Below are positions 7,026 through 25,122 of a stretch of DNA of 53,607 bases, piece after piece. Position 1 is the first letter of the stretch. Every line of letters starts with the position of its first letter. Source of the stretch: Clostridia bacterium (GTDB lineage: Bacteria > Bacillota > Clostridia > Oscillospirales > Acutalibacteraceae). The position numbers and the translations under genes are program-made. The notes below the pieces were generated by a model. That model saw only the letters and a program-made list of their open reading frames with translations. It was not told where the DNA came from and searched no databases. The stretch is taken from NCBI GenBank assembly GCA_017524165.1, contig JAFWUH010000004.1:1-53607 (forward strand), in the 5' to 3' direction.

Positions 7026-8249
7026 TTATTCTACCGTAAAGCGATGGAAAATCTTCTTTCCTTTTTTAACAACGATGCCGTCTTTCAATTGATCCAAACC
7101 GATCTGACAGGACGGATCTGTAACTTTTTGGTCTGCGACGCTGACCCCACCCTGTTGTACCAAACGGCGGGCTTCCCCGTTGGAGGCGGCAAGTTCGCCA
7201 CGAACCATTAAAGATAACAAGCCGATTTTTCCGTCGGTTAGATCGGCTGTCGAAAGAACGGTTTTGGGCATGTTCTCGCTGATCCCCGCACCGGAGAAGA
7301 CAGCTCTGGAAGTTTCCTGTGCGCGAAGAGCTTCCTCCTCGCCATGCACCAATTTAGTCAATTCGTATGCCAGAATTTCTTTGGCGGTATTCAGTTGACT
7401 GCCTTCCCAATGATCCATTTTATCAATTTCTTCCAGCGGCAGGAAGGTCAGCATACGGATACATTTTAACACATCGGCATCTCCGACATTGCGCCAATAC
7501 TGATAAAACTCATACGGAGAGGTCTTTTTCGGATCCAGCCAAACGGCTCCGCCGACCGTTTTCCCCATCTTCTTCCCCTCGGAATTGAGCAATAGCGTGA
7601 TGGTCATTGCATAGGCGTCTTTGCCGAGTTTTTTCCGAATCAGCTCGGTGCCGCCCAACATATTCGACCATTGGTCATCCCCGCCGAACTGCATATTACA
7701 ACCGTATTCCTGATACAGATGATAGAAATCATAGCTCTGCATGATCATATAGTTAAATTCTAAAAAGCTGAGCCCTTTTTCCATTCGCTGTTTATAGCAC
7801 TCGGCGCGCAACATATTATTGACCGAGAAGCAGGCGCCGACCTCTCGTAAAAGGTCGATATAATTGAGTTTCAACAGCCAGTCGGCATTGTTCACCATCA
7901 ACGCTTTGCCTTCGCCGAATTCAATGAATCGGCTCATTTGTTCTTTGAAGCAATCGCAGTTATGCTGTATCTGCTCGCTCGTCATCATGGAACGCATATC
8001 GGTTCTTCCCGACGGGTCGCCGACATGCCCCGTTCCGCCGCCGATTAAAGCAATCGGACGATTTCCTGCCATTTGCAAGCGTTTCATCAGGCAGAGCGCC
8101 ATAAAGTGCCCGACATGCAGACTGTCCGCCGTCGGGTCAAAGCCGATATAAAACACAGCTTTACCGCTGTTGATCAGTTCTTTGATCTCATCCTCGTCGG
8201 TTACCTGCGCAATCAAACCGCGTGCAACCAATTCATCATAAATTGTCAT
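7026..8249 (-). CDS. tyrS: Tyrosyl-tRNA synthetase
   Basis: Class Ic aminoacyl-tRNA synthetase charging tRNA-Tyr. The 407-residue length is typical of TyrS. Seen: FDPTADSLHVGH with the HIGH-equivalent H45-H48, GGDDQWSNMLGGTELIRK for tyrosine recognition, KMGKT (227-231) as the KMSKS equivalent, and a C-terminal S4 RNA-binding domain (about 345-400). ATG at 8249 has AGGAG 8 nt upstream. The first 14 nt overlap the end of recN, so it is translated as the last gene of the nusB-recN operon rather than from its own T-box leader; none was seen. No good terminator follows its stop. Confidence 0.97.
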   Translation of the reverse strand: MTIYDELVARGLIAQVTDEDEIKELINSGKAVFYIGFDPTADSLHVGHFMALCLMKRLQMAGNRPIALIGGGTGHVGDPSGRTDMRSMMTSEQIQHNCDCFKEQMSRFIEFGEGKALMVNNADWLLKLNYIDLLREVGACFSVNNMLRAECYKQRMEKGLSFLEFNYMIMQSYDFYHLYQEYGCNMQFGGDDQWSNMLGGTELIRKKLGKDAYAMTITLLLNSEGKKMGKTVGGAVWLDPKKTSPYEFYQYWRNVGDADVLKCIRMLTFLPLEEIDKMDHWEGSQLNTAKEILAYELTKLVHGEEEALRAQETSRAVFSGAGISENMPKTVLSTADLTDGKIGLLSLMVRGELAASNGEARRLVQQGGVSVADQKVTDPSCQIGLDQLKDGIVVKKGKKIFHRFTVE

Positions 8250-18237: not shown

Positions 18238-18342
18238 CCGCATGCATCAATTACATTGGTCGATCTTGTTTATATATTTTGATTTACCATAATTAATAAT
18301 ACGCATACCAAACATCTGTCATGTAAAGTGCATATACAGCAA

Positions 18343-18377
18343 GGGCTGCCTCACTTCTTTCGTGAGGCAGCCCTTTT
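18343..18377. terminator. Terminator between purB and the peptide cassette
   Basis: GGGCTGCCTCAC (18343-18354) pairs perfectly with GTGAGGCAGCCC (18362-18373) and is followed by TTTTGTTT on plus. On minus it lies 21 nt after the peptide stop but has a poor T tract, so it is mainly a purB terminator that may also stop the converging transcript. Confidence 0.88.
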
Positions 18378-18394: not shown

Positions 18395-18562
18395 TTAGCC
18401 GTTACCAAAGACATCTGACAAACCGCCGATACCGGTGTTCCAACCTGATTCGTTATTGTCACCACCGTTGATCAAACCACCCAAACCGCCGCCCGATGTG
18501 GTAATAATATCTTCGGTCATCTCAATAATTTCCATGGTTGCTTTTTCAAATTGTTTTGCCAT
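18395..18562 (-). CDS. Glycine-rich 55-residue peptide, copy 1
   Basis: Short gene (MAKQFEKATMEIIEMTE..., ending SDVFGNG) with no cysteine, no signal peptide and no recognised family. Residues 1-17 are charged and helical-looking. From DIITTSGGG (residue 18) the sequence is Gly/Asn-rich, with two related blocks, GLGGLINGG and GIGGLSDVFG, around NNESGW. ATG at 18562 is served by GGAGGA formed by the last two glycine codons of the upstream 835-residue protein. Residues 18-55 are identical to the second copy at 22199-22366 despite 17 synonymous codon differences, strong evidence that it is translated and selected. Candidate secreted or modified peptide; no processing enzyme is seen nearby. Confidence 0.85.
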   Translation of the reverse strand: MAKQFEKATMEIIEMTEDIITTSGGGLGGLINGGDNNESGWNTGIGGLSDVFGNG

Positions 18563-18568
18563 ACTTTT

Positions 18569-21076
18569 TTATCCTCCGATATAATCGTTTAAGACAAATT
18601 CCAAGGAGTTGCCCTTGATAATTCCACCGCCGACTAATTCAACATAAGGACGAATGGTAATCTTTTCACCGTAAAGTTCGCTGCCGACATTTGCGGTGGT
18701 CAGGATAAAGTAATCTGCGCCATACTGCGATGCCGTAATCTTTCCGGCTGTCTCATCCATAAAGGAGGTATAAACCGTGGGGGTGGAAATCTTTTGTTCA
18801 TAACCCATGATTTCCATGATAAAGCCGACCGATTCATAATCTGCCAAATCGCTGTCCAACATTGAAATAAACCGTAAATCACAGGAGTCCGCATTCGGCT
18901 TCAACTGTACAGCTGTTTGCAGATACTTCATGATGACCGTTGTTTTGGCTTCAACATTCTGAATTGCTTCTTCGGTCAGACCGCAGACGGTGCAAGAACC
19001 GTTTTCGATCTGGTGTCCGGTTGCCGGCTCTCCACTCGGCATGACATAGTGATCGCCGCAATAAGAACAGGTATATTCGTCATAACCATCCTCTGTACAG
19101 GTCGGTGCATGGGTTGTTTTTTGATAATTATGCGGGATCATGTCCGTATAGTCTTTTTTATACTCATCGTGGCATATTGTGCAACGGCAAAGTGTATAAC
19201 CTTGCGAAATGCAGGTCGGCGCAACTACGGTTTCTTCGTATTGATGCACCTCTTTCACAGCCATGATATTATCAATACGGACAAGTCCGTCATCCACGGT
19301 GGTATCTACCGGACCGTCGGTCGTCGCAAAGTAGAACGATGTAACCGCGCTCTTATCAAATGTGCCCACCGGTGTATTCGGATTGTCAATCACAACACTG
19401 AAATGTATCCACTCCGGATTTGTCGTGCTGACCGTTGCAGTCATGCGTGACAGCCGGAATACATTGTAATCTGTTGTCGAGGAAGATAATTTTAAGAGTA
19501 ATTGGTTATTGCCATTCGTACCGTAAGCAGCTTGAATCTGTTCCCACATGGTGCCTTCGCGTCCGTTGTTTTTGTTGGTATGGAAACGAACATCCCATTC
19601 GAGATACCGATAATCAGTCAAATCAACTGCGGTCGGGAAGGTATAGGTTACGGTACGGAAAGCGCCGTAATTAACATTGCATCCAATAGCGGAATTAGTG
19701 TCAAAGCCACTGTTATAGCCATTGGCGTTTACATTCAAGGCTTCACCGCCACCGGTTTTTACCCATCCGTCGGTGGTGGAACAATCGCAGAGAAGCTTTG
19801 CCAACGCATCGGGATCCGGCTCCGGCTCGGGTTCGGGTGTTTCTTCCTTGATCGCCATGATATTGTCAAGGCGAATAACGCCGTCATTTACGCCAGAATT
19901 TACAGCGCCCTCTACCGTTGCAAAATAGAAATTCTTCATCGCAGAAAGGTCAAAAGATCCTACCGTGCTGGTTGGATGATCCAGCACTACCTGGAAATGC
20001 ACCCATTCCGAATTGGTCGCGCTGACAACCGCATTCATCTCAGAAAGCGAGAAAGTAGCATAATCATTGTCCGAAGAAAATACTCTCAATACCAGAGTAT
20101 TGTTGCCATTCGTACCGTAAGCAGCTTGAATCTGTTCCCACATAGTGCCTTCACCATGTGAAGCGCTGGTATAAAAACGAACATCCCATTCGAGATACTT
20201 ATAGTCGGTCAAATCAACCGCAGTCGGGAAAGTATAGGTCGCCGTACGGAAAGCGCCGCCATTAACCGCACATCCAATTGCGGAATTGGTGTCGAAGCCA
20301 CTATTATAGCCACTGGCATTTACATTCAACGCATTGCCGGTCGTTTTTACCCATCCGTCGGTGGTGGAACAATCGCAAAGAAGTTTTGTCAACGCATCAG
20401 GATCCGGCTCCGGTTCGGGATCGGGTTCTGGATCCGGTTCAACGGCAACATCTTTCGTGGCAACGATGTTATCAATTGCAATAAAACCGTTGTCTACTGC
20501 TGTATTAGCAGCACCGTCAGTTGTCGAGAAATAAAATGCCGTAAAGGCGGATGGATCAAAATTTCTCGCAGTATTCGGCTGATCCATCTTGACCTTGAAG
20601 TGCACCCACTCCGAATCCACCACAGTAATGGTCATGGTTGACTTACGGAAGATATTACATTTATTATCCCCGGTCGAGCTAATCTTTAAATACATTGCAT
20701 TCTGACCATTGTCCACATATGAAGCAAGAATCTGCTCCCACATGGTTCCAGCAAGTCCATTACTTTTAGACGAATGAAAACGGACATCCCATTCTAAATA
20801 AGTATAGCCGCTCAAATCCATCGGAGAAGATGGTGCAAAAGTGATTGTCCTGAACGCACCGTATGAAACATTAGATGCAACAGAATTTGAGCTGTCCAGA
20901 CCATCCGTTCTAAGAAGCATGTCTTTCATGCCGTTGCCGCCGGTTTTGGTCCAACCGGTGAGGGTATCACAATCGCTGATGACCAACCTGTTTGTTGTGG
21001 TTTCTGCAGTAACCGGAACCACAAAAAGGGTCATCAATATAGCAAAAGTGAGCACCAATGCCAATATTTTTTTCAT
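18569..21076 (-). CDS. Secreted modular protein: three carbohydrate-binding-like modules plus conserved C-terminal region
   Basis: An 835-residue exported protein of unknown activity. Signal peptide at 1-25 (KKILALVLTFAILMTLF...PVTA). Three related modules of about 185 residues follow (about 26-210, 228-408, 422-608), each with YLEWDVRF, a GTMWEQI-like loop, W(V/I)HF and DNI; this looks like a beta-jelly-roll binding module but is not assigned to a CBM family. Pro-Glu-Asp linkers separate them. Residues about 610-700 hold two Cys-rich repeats (APTC...GY...C..C). Residues about 702-835 form a C-terminal region nearly identical to that of the 916-residue protein and end DYIGG. The chosen start has AAAGGA 9 nt upstream; the longer frame from 21121 lacks a ribosome site. 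No catalytic domain is evident, so a surface or matrix binding role is inferred. Confidence 0.75.
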   Translation of the reverse strand: MKKILALVLTFAILMTLFVVPVTAETTTNRLVISDCDTLTGWTKTGGNGMKDMLLRTDGLDSSNSVASNVSYGAFRTITFAPSSPMDLSGYTYLEWDVRFHSSKSNGLAGTMWEQILASYVDNGQNAMYLKISSTGDNKCNIFRKSTMTITVVDSEWVHFKVKMDQPNTARNFDPSAFTAFYFSTTDGAANTAVDNGFIAIDNIVATKDVAVEPDPEPDPEPEPDPDALTKLLCDCSTTDGWVKTTGNALNVNASGYNSGFDTNSAIGCAVNGGAFRTATYTFPTAVDLTDYKYLEWDVRFYTSASHGEGTMWEQIQAAYGTNGNNTLVLRVFSSDNDYATFSLSEMNAVVSATNSEWVHFQVVLDHPTSTVGSFDLSAMKNFYFATVEGAVNSGVNDGVIRLDNIMAIKEETPEPEPEPDPDALAKLLCDCSTTDGWVKTGGGEALNVNANGYNSGFDTNSAIGCNVNYGAFRTVTYTFPTAVDLTDYRYLEWDVRFHTNKNNGREGTMWEQIQAAYGTNGNNQLLLKLSSSTTDYNVFRLSRMTATVSTTNPEWIHFSVVIDNPNTPVGTFDKSAVTSFYFATTDGPVDTTVDDGLVRIDNIMAVKEVHQYEETVVAPTCISQGYTLCRCTICHDEYKKDYTDMIPHNYQKTTHAPTCTEDGYDEYTCSYCGDHYVMPSGEPATGHQIENGSCTVCGLTEEAIQNVEAKTTVIMKYLQTAVQLKPNADSCDLRFISMLDSDLADYESVGFIMEIMGYEQKISTPTVYTSFMDETAGKITASQYGADYFILTTANVGSELYGEKITIRPYVELVGGGIIKGNSLEFVLNDYIGG
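19200..20480 (-). repeat. Intragenic tandem repeat (modules 2 and 3 of the secreted protein)
   Basis: Modules 2 and 3 share long near-identical DNA stretches, for example CCGTAAGCAGCTTGAATCTG at 19521 and again at 20115, a period of 594 bp (198 codons). Module 1 is clearly more diverged, so one module duplicated recently or is kept similar by conversion. Confidence 0.75.
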
Positions 21077-21130
21077 AGTTTTCATTCCTTTCATTATTTT
21101 AACATTAAAAATCGTGCGCAAGAATACATC

Positions 21131-21181
21131 GTTTGATTGTTATAATACAAATTTTTAAAATATATATTATAACAACCAAAC
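21131..21181 (-). promoter_or_regulatory. 17-bp inverted repeat carrying TATAAT boxes upstream of the first cassette
   Basis: Arms 21131-21147 and 21165-21181 match with one mismatch. Each arm contains TTGTTATAATA in opposite orientation, so the element has a -10-like box on each strand. It lies 55-105 bp before the 835-residue gene in a very AT-rich stretch and is the likely promoter/operator region. No clean -35 at 17 bp was found. Nothing else is recognised in 21077-21324. Confidence 0.5.
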
Positions 21182-21324
21182 AATCAATCAACTATGCATT
21201 TGAATTGTACAACAATTTTACTAATAAGTCAAGACAATTGTGAAATAATTTTTAATAAACAACCCATTAGATGCATAAAATTTATATTTTTATTTGTATT
21301 ATTTAAAAGCATGTTCTACTTAAC

Positions 21325-21357
21325 GAAAAAGGCTCCCTCACAACCGTGAGAAAGCCT
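21325..21357 (-). terminator. Terminator of the second cassette
   Basis: Minus-strand hairpin AGGCTTTCTCAC / GTGAGGGAGCCT followed by TTTTCG, starting 5 nt after the stop of the dockerin-like protein gene. Confidence 0.85.
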
Positions 21358-21362
21358 TTCTC

Positions 21363-22202
21363 TTATAGTTTCAATAAAAGTTGTCGGAAGAAAATCAAAT
21401 CTTCTGCATTCAACATACTGCCGGGCAATATTGCTTTCTTTTTCAGCGCAATCAAATCACAAACATCGGTTTTACCGTTTTTATTGATATCGGTATTCTC
21501 AAACGAATAATCGACATCCGCAACTGTACTAACCTTGGAAAGCGATTGCCCATACCGTGAAAAAATATCCTGTCCGCTTGCAGCTGTATTTCCGGAAAAT
21601 GTCGATTGATAGACATAAACTTTTGATGTAAAGTCGCCGTAAATCGCTCCGCCGCGTGTATCTTGTTTTGCCAAAACAAAATTCCGAACCGTAACACCTT
21701 CCAGGCTTAATTCCGCGCCGGACTTAACTTCTGAAAATCCGCCGCAGGAAGCCGTTCTCTGTATTCCGTTTCCGTCAAAAATCAAATCTTTGAGGAACAA
21801 TTTTGCGCCGTTTTCCAAGATAATGGCGGATGAAGATCCGTAACAGGATACGGTATGAACCGTTTCCACGACCGTATCGACAAAATTCGCTCGTCCCCAC
21901 ACCGTGTAGGTACTGCCGCTTTTGACACGGCGCACCCCACTGGAAATGGTTAGACGAGTATTCTCGGGGATCACAATCGTTTCGTTGATCGAAACAGGTT
22001 CAAAGATTTCAATAGTATCACCGTTTTTTGCATGTTGCAATGCTTCAGAAAGAGATCCGTAAAGGGTAACCGATTGAACGATTCCCGAAACCGAAACAAG
22101 CTGAACCTTAAAATCTTCCGTATTCACACCAATTGCAGCACAGCTATACCACGGAAGCATCATAATCCACACTGCAAAAAGAATGATTAAGAATTTTTTC
22201 AT
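21363..22202 (-). CDS. Secreted beta-helix-like protein with dockerin-type repeat
   Basis: A 279-residue exported protein. Signal peptide at 1-22 (KKFLIILFAVWIMMLP, ending near SCAA). Residues about 45-225 look like a right-handed beta-helix with short repeats (GDTIEIFEPV, AIILENGAKLFLKDL, GAELSLEGVTV, GGAIYGDF, YVYQSTFSGNTA). The C-terminus has one dockerin-type calcium loop, DINKNGKTDVCDLIALKKK, followed by a degenerate second half (LNAEDLIFFRQLLL) lacking the Asp ladder. The start at 22202 overlaps the stop of peptide copy 2 as ATGA (22199-22202), implying coupled translation. An upstream extension to 22247 would run inside the peptide gene and is rejected. It may dock onto a cohesin scaffold; none is in the window. 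Confidence 0.75.
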   Translation of the reverse strand: MKKFLIILFAVWIMMLPWYSCAAIGVNTEDFKVQLVSVSGIVQSVTLYGSLSEALQHAKNGDTIEIFEPVSINETIVIPENTRLTISSGVRRVKSGSTYTVWGRANFVDTVVETVHTVSCYGSSSAIILENGAKLFLKDLIFDGNGIQRTASCGGFSEVKSGAELSLEGVTVRNFVLAKQDTRGGAIYGDFTSKVYVYQSTFSGNTAASGQDIFSRYGQSLSKVSTVADVDYSFENTDINKNGKTDVCDLIALKKKAILPGSMLNAEDLIFFRQLLLKL

Positions 22203-22366
22203 CCGTTTCCAAAAACATCGGACAAACCGCCGATACCGGTGTTCCACCCGGATTCGTTATTGTCGCCGCCATTGATTAAGCCGCCGAGTCCGCCACCCGA
22301 GGTGGTGATAATATCATCCGGCAACTCAAAAAATTCGATTGTTGCTCTTTCAAATTTTTTTGCCAT
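22199..22366 (-). CDS. Glycine-rich 55-residue peptide, copy 2
   Basis: Paralogue of the peptide at 18395-18562 with the same length. The N-terminal 17 residues (MAKKFERATIEFFELPD) differ from copy 1 at 8 positions, mostly conservatively. Residues 18-55, from DIITTSGGG to DVFGNG, are identical although 17 of those 38 codons differ. The ATG at 22366 lies 5 nt after a GGAGGA box supplied by the Gly-Gly codons that end the 916-residue protein, and the stop overlaps the next gene's ATG. It is therefore translated between two exported proteins. No Cys is present, which argues against lanthionine or disulfide-type peptides. No function can be assigned. Confidence 0.85.
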   Translation of the reverse strand: MAKKFERATIEFFELPDDIITTSGGGLGGLINGGDNNESGWNTGIGGLSDVFGNG

Positions 22367-22371
22367 GTTTC

Positions 22372-25122
22372 TTATCCTCCGATATAATCGCTTAAAACGA
22401 ATTGTAAAGGTCTGCCCTTAATAATGCCGCCGCCGACTAATTCCGCAAACGGACGAACAGTGATTTTTTCTCCGTACAGATCACTACCGACATTCGTGGT
22501 AGTCAAGATAAAGTAGTCTGCACCATACTGCGAAGCGGTAACTTTTCCGGCAGTCTCATCCATAAAGGAGGTATAAACTGTCGGCGTGGAGATCTTTTGC
22601 TCGTAACCCATCATTTCCATGATAAAGCCAACCGACTCATAATCCGCCAAATTGCTGTCCAACATCGAGATATAACGCAAGTCGCAGGAGTCATCGTTCT
22701 GCTTTAACTGTACCGCTGTTTGAAGATATTTCATAATCACTGCGGATTTTGCCGCAACATTTTGAATAACTTCTTCGGTCAGACCGCAGACCGAACAAAC
22801 ACCGTTCTCAATTTGGTGTCCGGTTGCCGGTTCTCCGCTCGGCACGATATAATGATCGCCGCAGCAAGAACAGGTATATTCTGCATAGCCTTCTTCGGTA
22901 CAAGTAGCAGGATGCACCGTTTTGACATAATCGTGCGGATGATTAAAGGTCATAGAAACTAATCCGTTGATACGCTGTGTCCATACATCCTGTACGGGTG
23001 TAAAGTTGGTAAATTCAACACGGATCACATCGCCGGTCTTTAAATCAATGTTTTGTAAAAACGGCACTGCAATCTTTTCATTTTGCGCATTCTTGGTCCC
23101 GAAAACAGCAAAGCCGTTACGCTTTTCAGCAGAACTATCACCATTCCAAATCACACGGTCATTCTTGGTAATGCGTATACCGAAATCCACCTGTGTTGAT
23201 GTATCATATTGTGAGAAATAGTTCACTTCATCCCATGCAATCGCTAAGTCCTGATTAGTTCGACCCAATGTGTAGATGCCGTCATACGGTGCGGTAAAAG
23301 CATATGCCGCGTCAATGCACCAGCCGTCATCATCACCGCCCCAAGCACTGTTAGTCGGAGTAATGCGAGCTAAATGATATCTGCCATCTGCCGGCATAGT
23401 CTCGGGCGCATAATAGCAATAACCCGGATAATTACCCCATGCGTGTTCTCCGTTATAAACATAAGTATAACCGTTGTCACGAGCAAAGCTACTGCCTGCC
23501 GAAGCCCAGCCGGCTCCTAATGCCTTGGTCTGTACCGACCACGGAGAAGAAGTGATAACATCAGTACCAGCTATACGGCACGCTTCAACTTCATCAAAGA
23601 AATCATAGACATCATACTCAATCGGGAATGTCCGAACCAATTCCATGGACGGTGTACCGGAAATCCGTTGTGCCCACGGATTACTGTCACAGGGTGTAAA
23701 AACAGTAAACTCTACACGAAGCTCATCGCCTGCATTCATCGCAATACCGGTTATATCTGGAATTGCAATGGTGGATTGTTGTGCAGTTTTGTTACCGAAA
23801 ACGGCATAGCCGTCGCGTTTTTCAGTATCGCTATCGCCATCCCAAATGGTATAGCCATTCTTGGTAATGCGAACACCAAAATCCAATGCTTCATCCTGAT
23901 TATACTGTGAGAAATAATTGGCAGAATCCCATGAAATCACTAAATCTTGATTACCTTTGCCCAAATGATAAAAACCGTTACTCGGTGCTGTAAAGACATA
24001 GGCTGCATTGATCGACCAATCCGGTGAATTTGCGCTGTTAGTCGGCGTGATCAAATTGAGCATATAGCGATCGTTGCGATTAGACGGGTAATAGAAGGAA
24101 ACACCCGGATAACTTCCCCAACTCTTTGCAGCATCGAAAAGGTAGGTCCAGTTTCCATCACGGCTGAAGGAAGTTCCAACCGATGCCCATGTGCCGCCTG
24201 CGGGCTGAACTTGTACGCTCCAGGGAGAAGCAGAAGAGATTTGTCCTCCCGAAACACGAGCGGCTTCCACATCAGCAAAGTAATCATATAAATCAAAATA
24301 ATTTGAAGAATTTTCCGGTTCATTCGGTTCATCTGAAATAGCAGTCAATTGAATTTCCGGCATACCGGAGATCCGCTGCGCCCACGGACTGCTATCACAG
24401 GGTGTAAAAACGGTAAACTCTACGCGAAGCTCATCACCTGCATTCATCGCAATATCAGTGATATCCGGTACTGCAACAACGCTTTGCTGTGCGGTTTTAC
24501 TACCGAAAACTGCAAAACCATCGCGTTTTTCAACAGAACTATCACCGTTCCAAATGGTGCTGCCGTTCTTGGTAACGCGAACGCCGAAATCCAATGCTTC
24601 AGATTTATCATACTGCGAAAAATTATTGGCAGCATCCCAAGAAATAGCTGCATCTTGATTTCCTTTTCCAAACTGATATGTACCACTATAAGGCGCAGTA
24701 AAAGTATACGCCGTATTGATAAACCATTCAGTCGAATTAGCACTATTCGTCGGTGCGATCAAATTAAGCATGTACCGACCGGAAAGGGATGCCGGATAAT
24801 GGAAAGAAACACCGGGATAGTTTCCCCAATGCTTTTCGGCATCGAAAAGGTAGGTCCAATTTCCATCACGGCTGAAGGAAGTTCCAACCGATGCCCATGT
24901 TCCGCCTGCAGGCTGAACTTGTACGCTCCAGGGAGAAGCAGAAGAGATTTGTCCTCCCGATGCACGGGCAGATTCCACATCAGCAAAGTAATCATACAAC
25001 TGATACCGAACCGGTAACGAAATATCATCGTTCGCCGAAGTTGCGATGCCGGAAATAAACATTGATTGCAGAATTAGCACAAAAACAATGAATCCAATTC
25101 CGAGTTTGCGAAAATGTCTCAT
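22372..25122 (-). CDS. Secreted modular protein: three ~220-residue modules plus conserved C-terminal region
   Basis: A 916-residue exported protein. Signal peptide at 1-31 (LGIGFIVFVLILQSMFISG, then IATSAN). Three modules (about 37-262, 274-492, 500-716) each contain LYDYFADVE or a variant, ASPWSVQ, NYPG, a TAPYSGTYQFGKGNQD-like strand, DFGVRVTKNG, IWNGDS and AGDELRVEF; they look like beta-sandwich binding modules of no assigned family. One Cys-rich repeat (about 722-780) and a C-terminal region (about 782-916) shared with the 835-residue protein follow, ending DYIGG. ATG at 25122 has AGGAGG upstream, and a good promoter lies about 100 bp before it. No catalytic motif was seen. Likely cell-surface or matrix binding, coupled to the downstream peptide. 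Confidence 0.75.
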   Translation of the reverse strand: MRHFRKLGIGFIVFVLILQSMFISGIATSANDDISLPVRYQLYDYFADVESARASGGQISSASPWSVQVQPAGGTWASVGTSFSRDGNWTYLFDAEKHWGNYPGVSFHYPASLSGRYMLNLIAPTNSANSTEWFINTAYTFTAPYSGTYQFGKGNQDAAISWDAANNFSQYDKSEALDFGVRVTKNGSTIWNGDSSVEKRDGFAVFGSKTAQQSVVAVPDITDIAMNAGDELRVEFTVFTPCDSSPWAQRISGMPEIQLTAISDEPNEPENSSNYFDLYDYFADVEAARVSGGQISSASPWSVQVQPAGGTWASVGTSFSRDGNWTYLFDAAKSWGSYPGVSFYYPSNRNDRYMLNLITPTNSANSPDWSINAAYVFTAPSNGFYHLGKGNQDLVISWDSANYFSQYNQDEALDFGVRITKNGYTIWDGDSDTEKRDGYAVFGNKTAQQSTIAIPDITGIAMNAGDELRVEFTVFTPCDSNPWAQRISGTPSMELVRTFPIEYDVYDFFDEVEACRIAGTDVITSSPWSVQTKALGAGWASAGSSFARDNGYTYVYNGEHAWGNYPGYCYYAPETMPADGRYHLARITPTNSAWGGDDDGWCIDAAYAFTAPYDGIYTLGRTNQDLAIAWDEVNYFSQYDTSTQVDFGIRITKNDRVIWNGDSSAEKRNGFAVFGTKNAQNEKIAVPFLQNIDLKTGDVIRVEFTNFTPVQDVWTQRINGLVSMTFNHPHDYVKTVHPATCTEEGYAEYTCSCCGDHYIVPSGEPATGHQIENGVCSVCGLTEEVIQNVAAKSAVIMKYLQTAVQLKQNDDSCDLRYISMLDSNLADYESVGFIMEMMGYEQKISTPTVYTSFMDETAGKVTASQYGADYFILTTTNVGSDLYGEKITVRPFAELVGGGIIKGRPLQFVLSDYIGG
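24130..24998 (-). repeat. Intragenic duplication in modules 1 and 2 of the 916-residue protein
   Basis: A stretch of about 150 bp near 24130-24290 recurs at about 24840-24998 with few differences, offset 708 bp (236 codons); for example AAGTTCCAAC at 24171 and 24879. Module 3 is more diverged. This is recent internal duplication or conversion. Confidence 0.75.

Follow-up and report, generated by a model that had tools for sequence, protein, structure and literature searches.

Two short, unannotated genes of equal length raise the question addressed here: are glycine-rich frames of 55 codons with identical C-terminal parts genuine genes and, if so, what are their products for? They lie in the window, by which we mean the whole analysed stretch of 53,607 nucleotides (contig JAFWUH010000004.1 of the Clostridia bacterium assembly GCA_017524165.1, Acutalibacteraceae). 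An earlier note, made from the sequence alone, had placed them at 18395-18562 and 22199-22366 and had described them as free of Cys and of a signal peptide. Both frames are real and are open on the minus strand, the plus-strand reading of these loci containing stops, and the two absences hold for each copy. The twin genes and the features around them are as follows.

18562..18395, minus strand: putative precursor peptide gene, copy 1, 55 aa (frame, selection and Ser column discussed below)
22366..22199, minus strand: putative precursor peptide gene, copy 2, 55 aa (frame and selection discussed below)
18569..21121, minus strand: partner 1, ORF of 850 aa with a hydrophobic, signal-like N-terminal segment
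22372..25122, minus strand: partner 2, ORF of 916 aa with a hydrophobic, signal-like N-terminal segment
18572..18961, minus strand: C-terminal domain of partner 1, last 130 aa, which travels with the peptide gene
22375..22764, minus strand: C-terminal domain of partner 2, last 130 aa, used in the dS and alignment comparison of the partners
18572..18577, minus strand: Shine-Dalgarno-like GGAGGA of copy 1, within the last two codons of partner 1
22375..22380, minus strand: Shine-Dalgarno-like GGAGGA of copy 2, within the last two codons of partner 2
18341..18375, minus strand: GC-rich inverted repeat seen by eye, 20 nt past the copy 1 stop codon
21363..22202, minus strand: 279-aa protein, third gene of the copy 2 operon, its ATG overlapping the copy 2 stop codon (ATGA)

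A recount of the differences between the twins agreed with the figures of the earlier note. Residues 18-55 are identical in protein, 17 of the 38 codons differing and all of them synonymously, and residues 1-17 show amino acid differences at 8 positions. Third codon positions hold 17 of the 18 nucleotide differences in residues 18-55, and when 18 substitutions were placed at random on this segment, 20,000 times over, not once were all of them synonymous. Nei-Gojobori estimates for the twins are dS 1.23 and dN 0.012 over residues 18-55, and dS 0.28 and dN 0.22 over residues 1-17. A third copy with 83% identity to copy 1 is present on another contig (C23) of the window's genome (G000), and here too the selection pattern is kept, with dN 0.08-0.09 and dS of about 0.95 over residues 18-55. 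The twins are real coding genes under purifying selection, as had been proposed.

Each twin is tightly attached to the gene before it: the ATG of copy 1 lies 6 nt past the stop codon of partner 1, and that of copy 2 lies 5 nt past the stop codon of partner 2. The inverted repeat at 18341..18375 may possibly mark the end of the copy 1 operon. The 279-aa protein (21363..22202) begins with a signal-like segment and ends in a stretch that, by eye, resembles a dockerin; no Pfam model scored over its cut-off for this protein or for either partner. The third copy has the same operon layout, behind a BspA-type leucine-rich-repeat protein. Pairwise comparison against shuffles indicated that the three partners are alike only over approximately their last 210 aa, the N-terminal parts giving z-scores of 0.0, 2.6 and -1.0 and the last 135 residues 95 to 130. 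Over their last 130 aa, partners 1 and 2 differ at 18 of 130 residues with a dS of 1.30, and the dS of this segment between copies (0.92-1.33) is in the same range as that of the peptide. Because these dS ranges match, the partner C-terminal domain and the peptide look like one old cassette. AlphaFold2 predicted a beta-sandwich for the C-terminal domain of partner 1 (pLDDT 79), and this model had no Foldseek match at E <= 0.001.

The earlier note had mentioned short clostridial frames with a D-[IV]-I-x-TSG motif, and a family with a D-[IV]-I-x-TS motif does exist in Clostridia. The peptides are not covered by any model in Pfam or NCBIfam; a weak match to YidB in Pfam (E 0.015-0.088, below the cut-off) was rejected as glycine-rich similarity, and two matches in a PDB profile search with the leader (E 1.1 and 2.5) as chance. 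Profiles were made from six relatives (A1) and from fifteen (A2), together with a 52-row leader profile (A3). At E <= 0.1, and with a few chance matches in long frames, A1 found matches in 17 of the 200 genomes searched at family level, and A2 in 67 of 295 at order level and in 45 of 291 at class level. A3 had matches in 35 of the 61 genomes from the genus. The search for further copies in the window's own genome, which the note had suggested, returned the third copy and, with A3, six precursor places in all (C21 twice, C23 twice, C4 and C30). With A2 there were 22 matches in G738 and 14 in G546, and a short frame with the motif was found at all 20 places fetched from the former and all 14 from the latter. 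Matches at L006, L011, L015, L018, L019, L020, L023 and L024 were discarded as chance, showing a long unrelated frame or no motif. Scanning named genomes with a DNA pattern returned 13 stretches, all from assemblies titled Clostridia, Oscillospiraceae, Roseburia or Bacillota.

The family leader reads Y..P..E[IV]..F..ED[IV]ITTS and is followed by a variable core. The notion of a constant C-terminal part behind a looser N-terminus stands within the window's genome but does not extend to the family, where it is the leader and the D-[IV]-[IL]-T-[TA]-S motif that stay constant and the variation falls in the C-terminal core. In 123 rows anchored on the D, some of them mis-anchored, Y is found at -14 in 82, P at -11 in 79, E at -8 in 68, F at -4 in 74, D itself in 100, I or V at +1 in 120, T at +3 in 91 and Ser at +5 in 114. 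The Ser column of the leader-profile alignment (160 hits, 11 of them unaligned) holds Ser in 149 of 149 aligned cells and no Thr, an invariance that is not fully independent since the profile was built from rows with Ser; strong Thr-bearing hits would have been retained by the profile, and zero were seen. The three window-type copies carry F/M..A at the Y..P positions (FEKA and FERA in the twins), and the precursor at C23:4454 is without any YxxP.

The association with secreted proteins recurs in the family. A same-strand upstream gene ending no more than 60 nt away precedes 92 of 115 peptides, and by a crude signal test 35 of 45 complete upstream neighbours are secreted-like, as against 63 of 341 other genes. 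In a larger set of 160 frames, 9 were too near an end and 71 had a cut upstream gene, leaving 80 testable peptides; a secreted-like gene lies upstream in 43, only downstream in 11, and on neither side in 26, the last figure being due in part to the crudeness of the signal test. The context count omits L060 and L063, which duplicate L106 and L086. In one genome (G516), four of the six fetched copies (L120, L121, L124 and L125) are upstream of a secreted-protein gene, and at L122 of the same genome a secreted-protein gene overlaps downstream as well. Partner modules across loci include leucine-rich-repeat, F5/8-type-C and others. LPXTG was found in 0 of 93 upstream neighbours and a hydrophobic C-terminus in 2 of 93; we rejected a missing anchor as an argument for tethering, sortase genes being present in the window's genome and in 55 of 70 genomes. 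The earlier note had also considered a small structural partner of the large secreted proteins; the genetic link of the twins to these proteins is strong, and a physical one may exist.

In two genomes with many copies, the core follows the end of its partner. Core similarity correlates with similarity of the partners' last 120 residues at r 0.93 in G546 (11 pairs) and 0.83 in G738 (17-18 pairs), and with that of the partner N-terminal parts at r 0.61 in each. The partial correlation with the C-terminal part is 0.89 and 0.81, respectively (p 0.0003), and the link to the N-terminal part vanishes (-0.05 and -0.02). After removal of near-duplicates, G738 retains a partial r of 0.39 (p 0.0003, 16 pairs), and G546 is down to three, too small a number. 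Because the genes are physically adjacent, duplication of the adjoining stretch could give such a correlation without contact.

General tail mimicry between core and partner was considered and rejected, a 4-mer being common to 10 of 94 pairs against a shuffled mean of 10.1. Two individual loci are of note. In G516 the 922-aa upstream protein L122:2-2767 ends in ..NDGSGWT and the precursor L122:3033-3180 in ..DGGGWT, other precursors of this genome ending in GWT, DWA, GWI and FWT; the resemblance of the two ends may have arisen by chance or may reflect a recognition tail that both carry. At L029:1500-1626 (G180) a precursor ends in ..IELPIIPVK and the upstream 209-aa Ser-rich protein in ..IELPIITV, and a second precursor, which follows the first, ends in ..NELPVIKD.

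The earlier note had also proposed a search for linked radical-SAM, protease and export genes. These were found in trans, in the same genome and beside precursors with the same leader. Contig C4 encodes, in order, an ABC exporter, a 390-aa protein, a 139-aa precursor (MRISNPELKVIRFASDDVIASS..), a PqqD protein, a signal-peptidase-like protein, a kinase and an NTP_transf_5 protein; the leader of this precursor ends in ..VIRFASDDVIASS, the same leader end as in the twins' family. Contig C23 encodes a secreted 560-aa protein, a precursor, two radical SAM proteins, a kinase, a PqqD protein and an S24/S26-like protease, with no MsbA-like ABC exporter within the cluster. PF05402 (PqqD-like, discrete RRE) scored over cut-off at C3, C4 and C23 (1.6e-9 for the C4 protein) and the NTP transferase PF14907 at C4 and C57 (3.6e-35 for the C4 NTP_transf_5 protein). 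The best NCBIfam match of the C4 ABC protein is MsbA_lipidA (248 bits, under the cut-off of 602), the protease matches sigpep_I_arch at 1.4e-5, under its cut-off, and the C23 radical SAM proteins of 259 aa and 453 aa match TIGR04463 best (2.5e-40, 138.6 bits, under the cut-off of 525). The protease Ser, His and Asp (S26, H70, D86) are kept in 10 of 10 alignment rows.

No Pfam or NCBIfam model recognises the kinase, and a sequence search of the PDB likewise returned nothing. Its His, SGxGK[ST]TH and DKP are invariant in 14 of 14 alignment rows, and Foldseek comparison of an AlphaFold2 model (pLDDT 95.4) with the PDB returned PEPCK from E 7e-6 and HprK/P from 1.6e-5, with modest TM-scores. PEPCK and HprK/P are two families of one fold, and on the model the kinase would have this HprK/PEPCK fold.

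Clusters with a precursor occur in other genomes (L152-L156, L158, L159, L201, L202 and L205). Twenty loci were fetched around PqqD matches, nine with a precursor in the cluster and nine without, from which we conclude that enzymes and most precursors lie apart in many genomes. In the remaining two (L157:3561-3914 and L167:4492-4851) a PqqD protein of about 118 aa comes, by eye, directly after an OPT-type transporter gene, and these proteins are probably of another kind, a separate PqqD lineage. The PqqD-domain frame on C3 (G000:C3:71943-72113; L150 approximately 7944-8114) is just after V-type ATPase genes, and neither kinase nor protease was seen near it in the 16 kb read.

Peptide and enzymes also occur together across genomes. 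We hand-picked 70 genomes from earlier hit lists, 40 with and 30 without an A2 match at E <= 0.1; one of the peptide-negative genomes (G052) later matched A3. The kinase is present in 37 of the 40 and 7 of the 30, and when the genomes that supplied its profile are omitted, in 26 of 29 and 6 of 29 (Fisher p 8e-8, phylogeny ignored). Compared in the same way, by Fisher test with phylogeny ignored, NTP_transf_5 is found in 34 of 40 and 9 of 30, and PqqD in 35 of 40 and 14 of 30 (11 of 30 in short frames).

The literature that we searched on small proteins, PqqD/kinase, RRE and surface proteins gave one direct relative, the linear polyphosphorylated peptides (LPP; Popov et al., Nat Commun 2026, PMC13381572), and none of the papers searched contained the string 'DIITTSG'. 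According to the main text of PMC13381572, the LPP enzymes are the RRE LppB, the HprK kinase LppK, the SipW-like protease LppS, the NTP transferase LppN and the exporter LppD, and the precursors have a YxxPxVLxHQxIxFETxxS leader and variable C-termini. Phosphates are placed on core Ser 3 and cleavage falls after T-1; LppK takes Ser and not Thr, the LppS catalytic residues are S29, H68 and D93, and changing the leader Y or P to A weakens binding. The same text states the biological roles of LPPs as unknown.

As far as that text describes them, both systems have an RRE, an HprK-like kinase, a SipW-like signal peptidase, an NTP transferase and an MsbA-like exporter, with a variable core and neither lasso cyclase nor B2, and the leader logo of the family resembles the YxxP...F...S of the LPPs. 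The Ser, which is the phosphate acceptor in the LPPs and a candidate acceptor here, lies 18-19 residues past the Y (18 from F5 to S23 in the twins, as between Y and S of the LPP motif), and the protease Ser, His and Asp are kept as in LppS. From the LPP leader motif the family retains Y/F, P/A, the hydrophobic pattern and the Ser, but not HQ and FET, its leader ending in DIITTS and not FETxxS. The LPPs described there come as one to three in-cluster precursors in Bacilli genomes near capsule loci, whereas here we find up to 22 matches per genome in Clostridia, precursors scattered in secreted-protein operons, enzymes in trans and, sometimes, added radical SAM genes. The main text of PMC13381572 nowhere uses 'Clostridi', 'surface', 'secreted' or 'dispersed', and its supplements may list Clostridia loci. 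On this comparison the leader-like N-terminus of the earlier note is upheld, but its border probably lies near residue 20/21 rather than 17/18, since the end of the leader falls within the identical 38 residues. The resulting assignments are listed below.

18503-18562, minus strand: inferred leader of copy 1, residues 1-20 (border after the main text of PMC13381572)
18398-18502, minus strand: inferred core of copy 1, residues 21-55 (border after the main text of PMC13381572)
18494-18496, minus strand: candidate phospho-Ser S23 of copy 1, in the Ser column invariant in the family
22298-22300, minus strand: candidate phospho-Ser S23 of copy 2, in which residues 18-55 equal those of copy 1

The reading that we prefer, with a probability of about 0.72, is that the twins are precursors of a Clostridia branch of LPP-type RiPPs, matured in trans, with a product that would act with the partner domain; maturation would be in trans because the enzymes are encoded at C4 and C23 and not beside the twins. 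That the twins are RiPP precursors of LPP type is very probable, and the precursor role proposed in the earlier note is supported. In the pathway, the chemistry, cleavage site and partner role of which we infer, the PqqD-like RRE would hold the N-terminal leader (approximately residues 1-20), the HprK-like kinase would phosphorylate the invariant Ser (S23) of the DIITTS motif, and the Ser-His-Asp signal-peptidase-like protease would take off the leader near I20/T21. The nucleotidyltransferase may modify the phosphate, and the MsbA-like ABC transporter would export the product. Given the common operon and the single cassette, the mature peptide would most likely work outside the cell with the partner C-terminal domain, possibly as ligand, in retention or as a surface tether; for a physical or functional partnership of the peptide with the co-encoded secreted protein we would put the chances a little short of even. 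Several observations go against the LPP-type reading: F..A in place of Y..P in the window copies calls for caution, the motif letters HQ and FET are absent, none of the matches for protease, ABC and radical SAM proteins reaches its curated cut-off, and the kinase is missing from 3 of the 40 peptide-positive genomes and present in 7 of the 30 peptide-negative ones.

Other explanations account for part of these data. The peptide, instead of being a RiPP precursor, could stay unmodified in the cytoplasm as a small protein that serves the secreted protein as, for instance, a chaperone or translation partner; tight translational coupling behind the secreted protein, the missing signal peptide, a core that tracks the partner C-terminal domain and window leaders without YxxP would all suit it. 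We consider it improbable, since at least 9 of the 20 PqqD loci have the same leader motif beside genes for RRE, kinase and protease, peptide and enzymes co-vary across genomes, the peptide is upstream of the secreted gene in G516, and glycine-rich, variable cores would be unlike a folded chaperone. It is quite improbable that the twins feed the radical SAM/SPASM branch at C23 and are crosslinked rather than phosphorylated. The 259-aa and 453-aa proteins there do have a RiPP maturase model (TIGR04463) as their best match, and a similar gene for about 450 aa follows the peptide in several members of the genus, but no maturase model scored over its curated cut-off (138.6 against 525 bits for TIGR04463), the kinase and protease are still in the C23 clusters, and the precursors beside radical SAM genes have a short M[KE][AF].xE[IV]V.. 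leader without YxxP, unlike the twins. The twins also lack Cys, although other radical SAM links need none.

The glycine-rich stretch directly after the leader of the twins could suggest a bacteriocin or pheromone of the double-glycine type, with a C39-peptidase ABC transporter for cleavage and export. GG is not conserved, however, the position after the Ser holding G in 61 of 147 aligned cells, and the C4 exporter has no Pfam C39 peptidase domain, so that we hold this to be very improbable. Least credible of all is a lasso peptide of the paeninodin kind (PadeK/ThcoK, PsmK, PsmN; PMC9266682). The text available from PMC9266682 gives these systems the RRE (split), kinase, nucleotidyltransferase and [Y/W]xxP leader motif also seen here, and the invariant residues of our kinase are in keeping with the His-Lys-Asp-Asp motif conserved in the lasso kinases. 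The clusters here, on the other hand, are without B2 peptidase and macrolactam synthetase. Of 70 genomes, one (G265, a partial match) had the lasso leader peptidase PF13471 over cut-off, and no match to it came from the window's genome, in which Asn_synthase (PF00733) is absent from the C4 and C23 clusters, its matches being on C32, C37 and C44. The core of the twins has no Asp/Glu at positions 7-9 after a Gly at position 1, and the phosphate is predicted near the core start, as opposed to the C-terminal Ser in the paeninodin type.

If the twins are LPP-type precursors, what is new here is the dispersal of such precursors into surface-protein operons, with a core that tracks the C-terminal domain of the partner and not its N-terminal part; among these points, the conservation of the operon shared with secreted proteins is the strongest. 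The position of the twins directly behind large secreted-protein genes hints at what LPP-type peptides are for, and the pattern ties LPP-type precursors to secreted surface proteins in many gut Clostridia, with tens per genome in some. Recurrent 'hypothetical' frames of 35-60 aa in Clostridia genomes would be explained, and the leader profile finds them. Prochlorosins, which are lanthipeptides with Nif11-type leaders, are likewise made from many dispersed precursors with a common leader by few enzymes, but differ in the type of leader and product and are not known to be tied to surface-protein operons. We tentatively propose, as an idea that we regard as doubtful, that one trans enzyme set phosphorylates, trims, decorates and exports many different peptides, each encoded behind a surface protein of its own and recognised extracellularly by the C-terminal domain of that protein, and that the modified peptide would tether, activate or mark the protein at the cell surface. 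If true, surface proteins would be retained or controlled by a route not seen before, and the LPP class would have its function.

Some variants of the precursor deserve mention. Two precursor-like stretches, at L013 (approximately 1501-1632) and L021 (approximately 1501-1641), are interrupted by an in-frame TAA that follows the start and precedes the DIIT motif, and are possibly decayed copies. Long-core precursors with the same leader occur in two genomes of the genus (L151:4913-5332, 139 aa, and L182 in G050, about 140 aa); their cores are Gly/Tyr-rich and end in ..YDAFSYG.G.YY.NG.SYYES.WQ. At many loci, for example L031, L036, L046, L049, L058, L065 and L129, the core ends in a hydrophobic-Pro-acidic sequence such as LPDDEF or LPDEE, which is a possible second recognition element.
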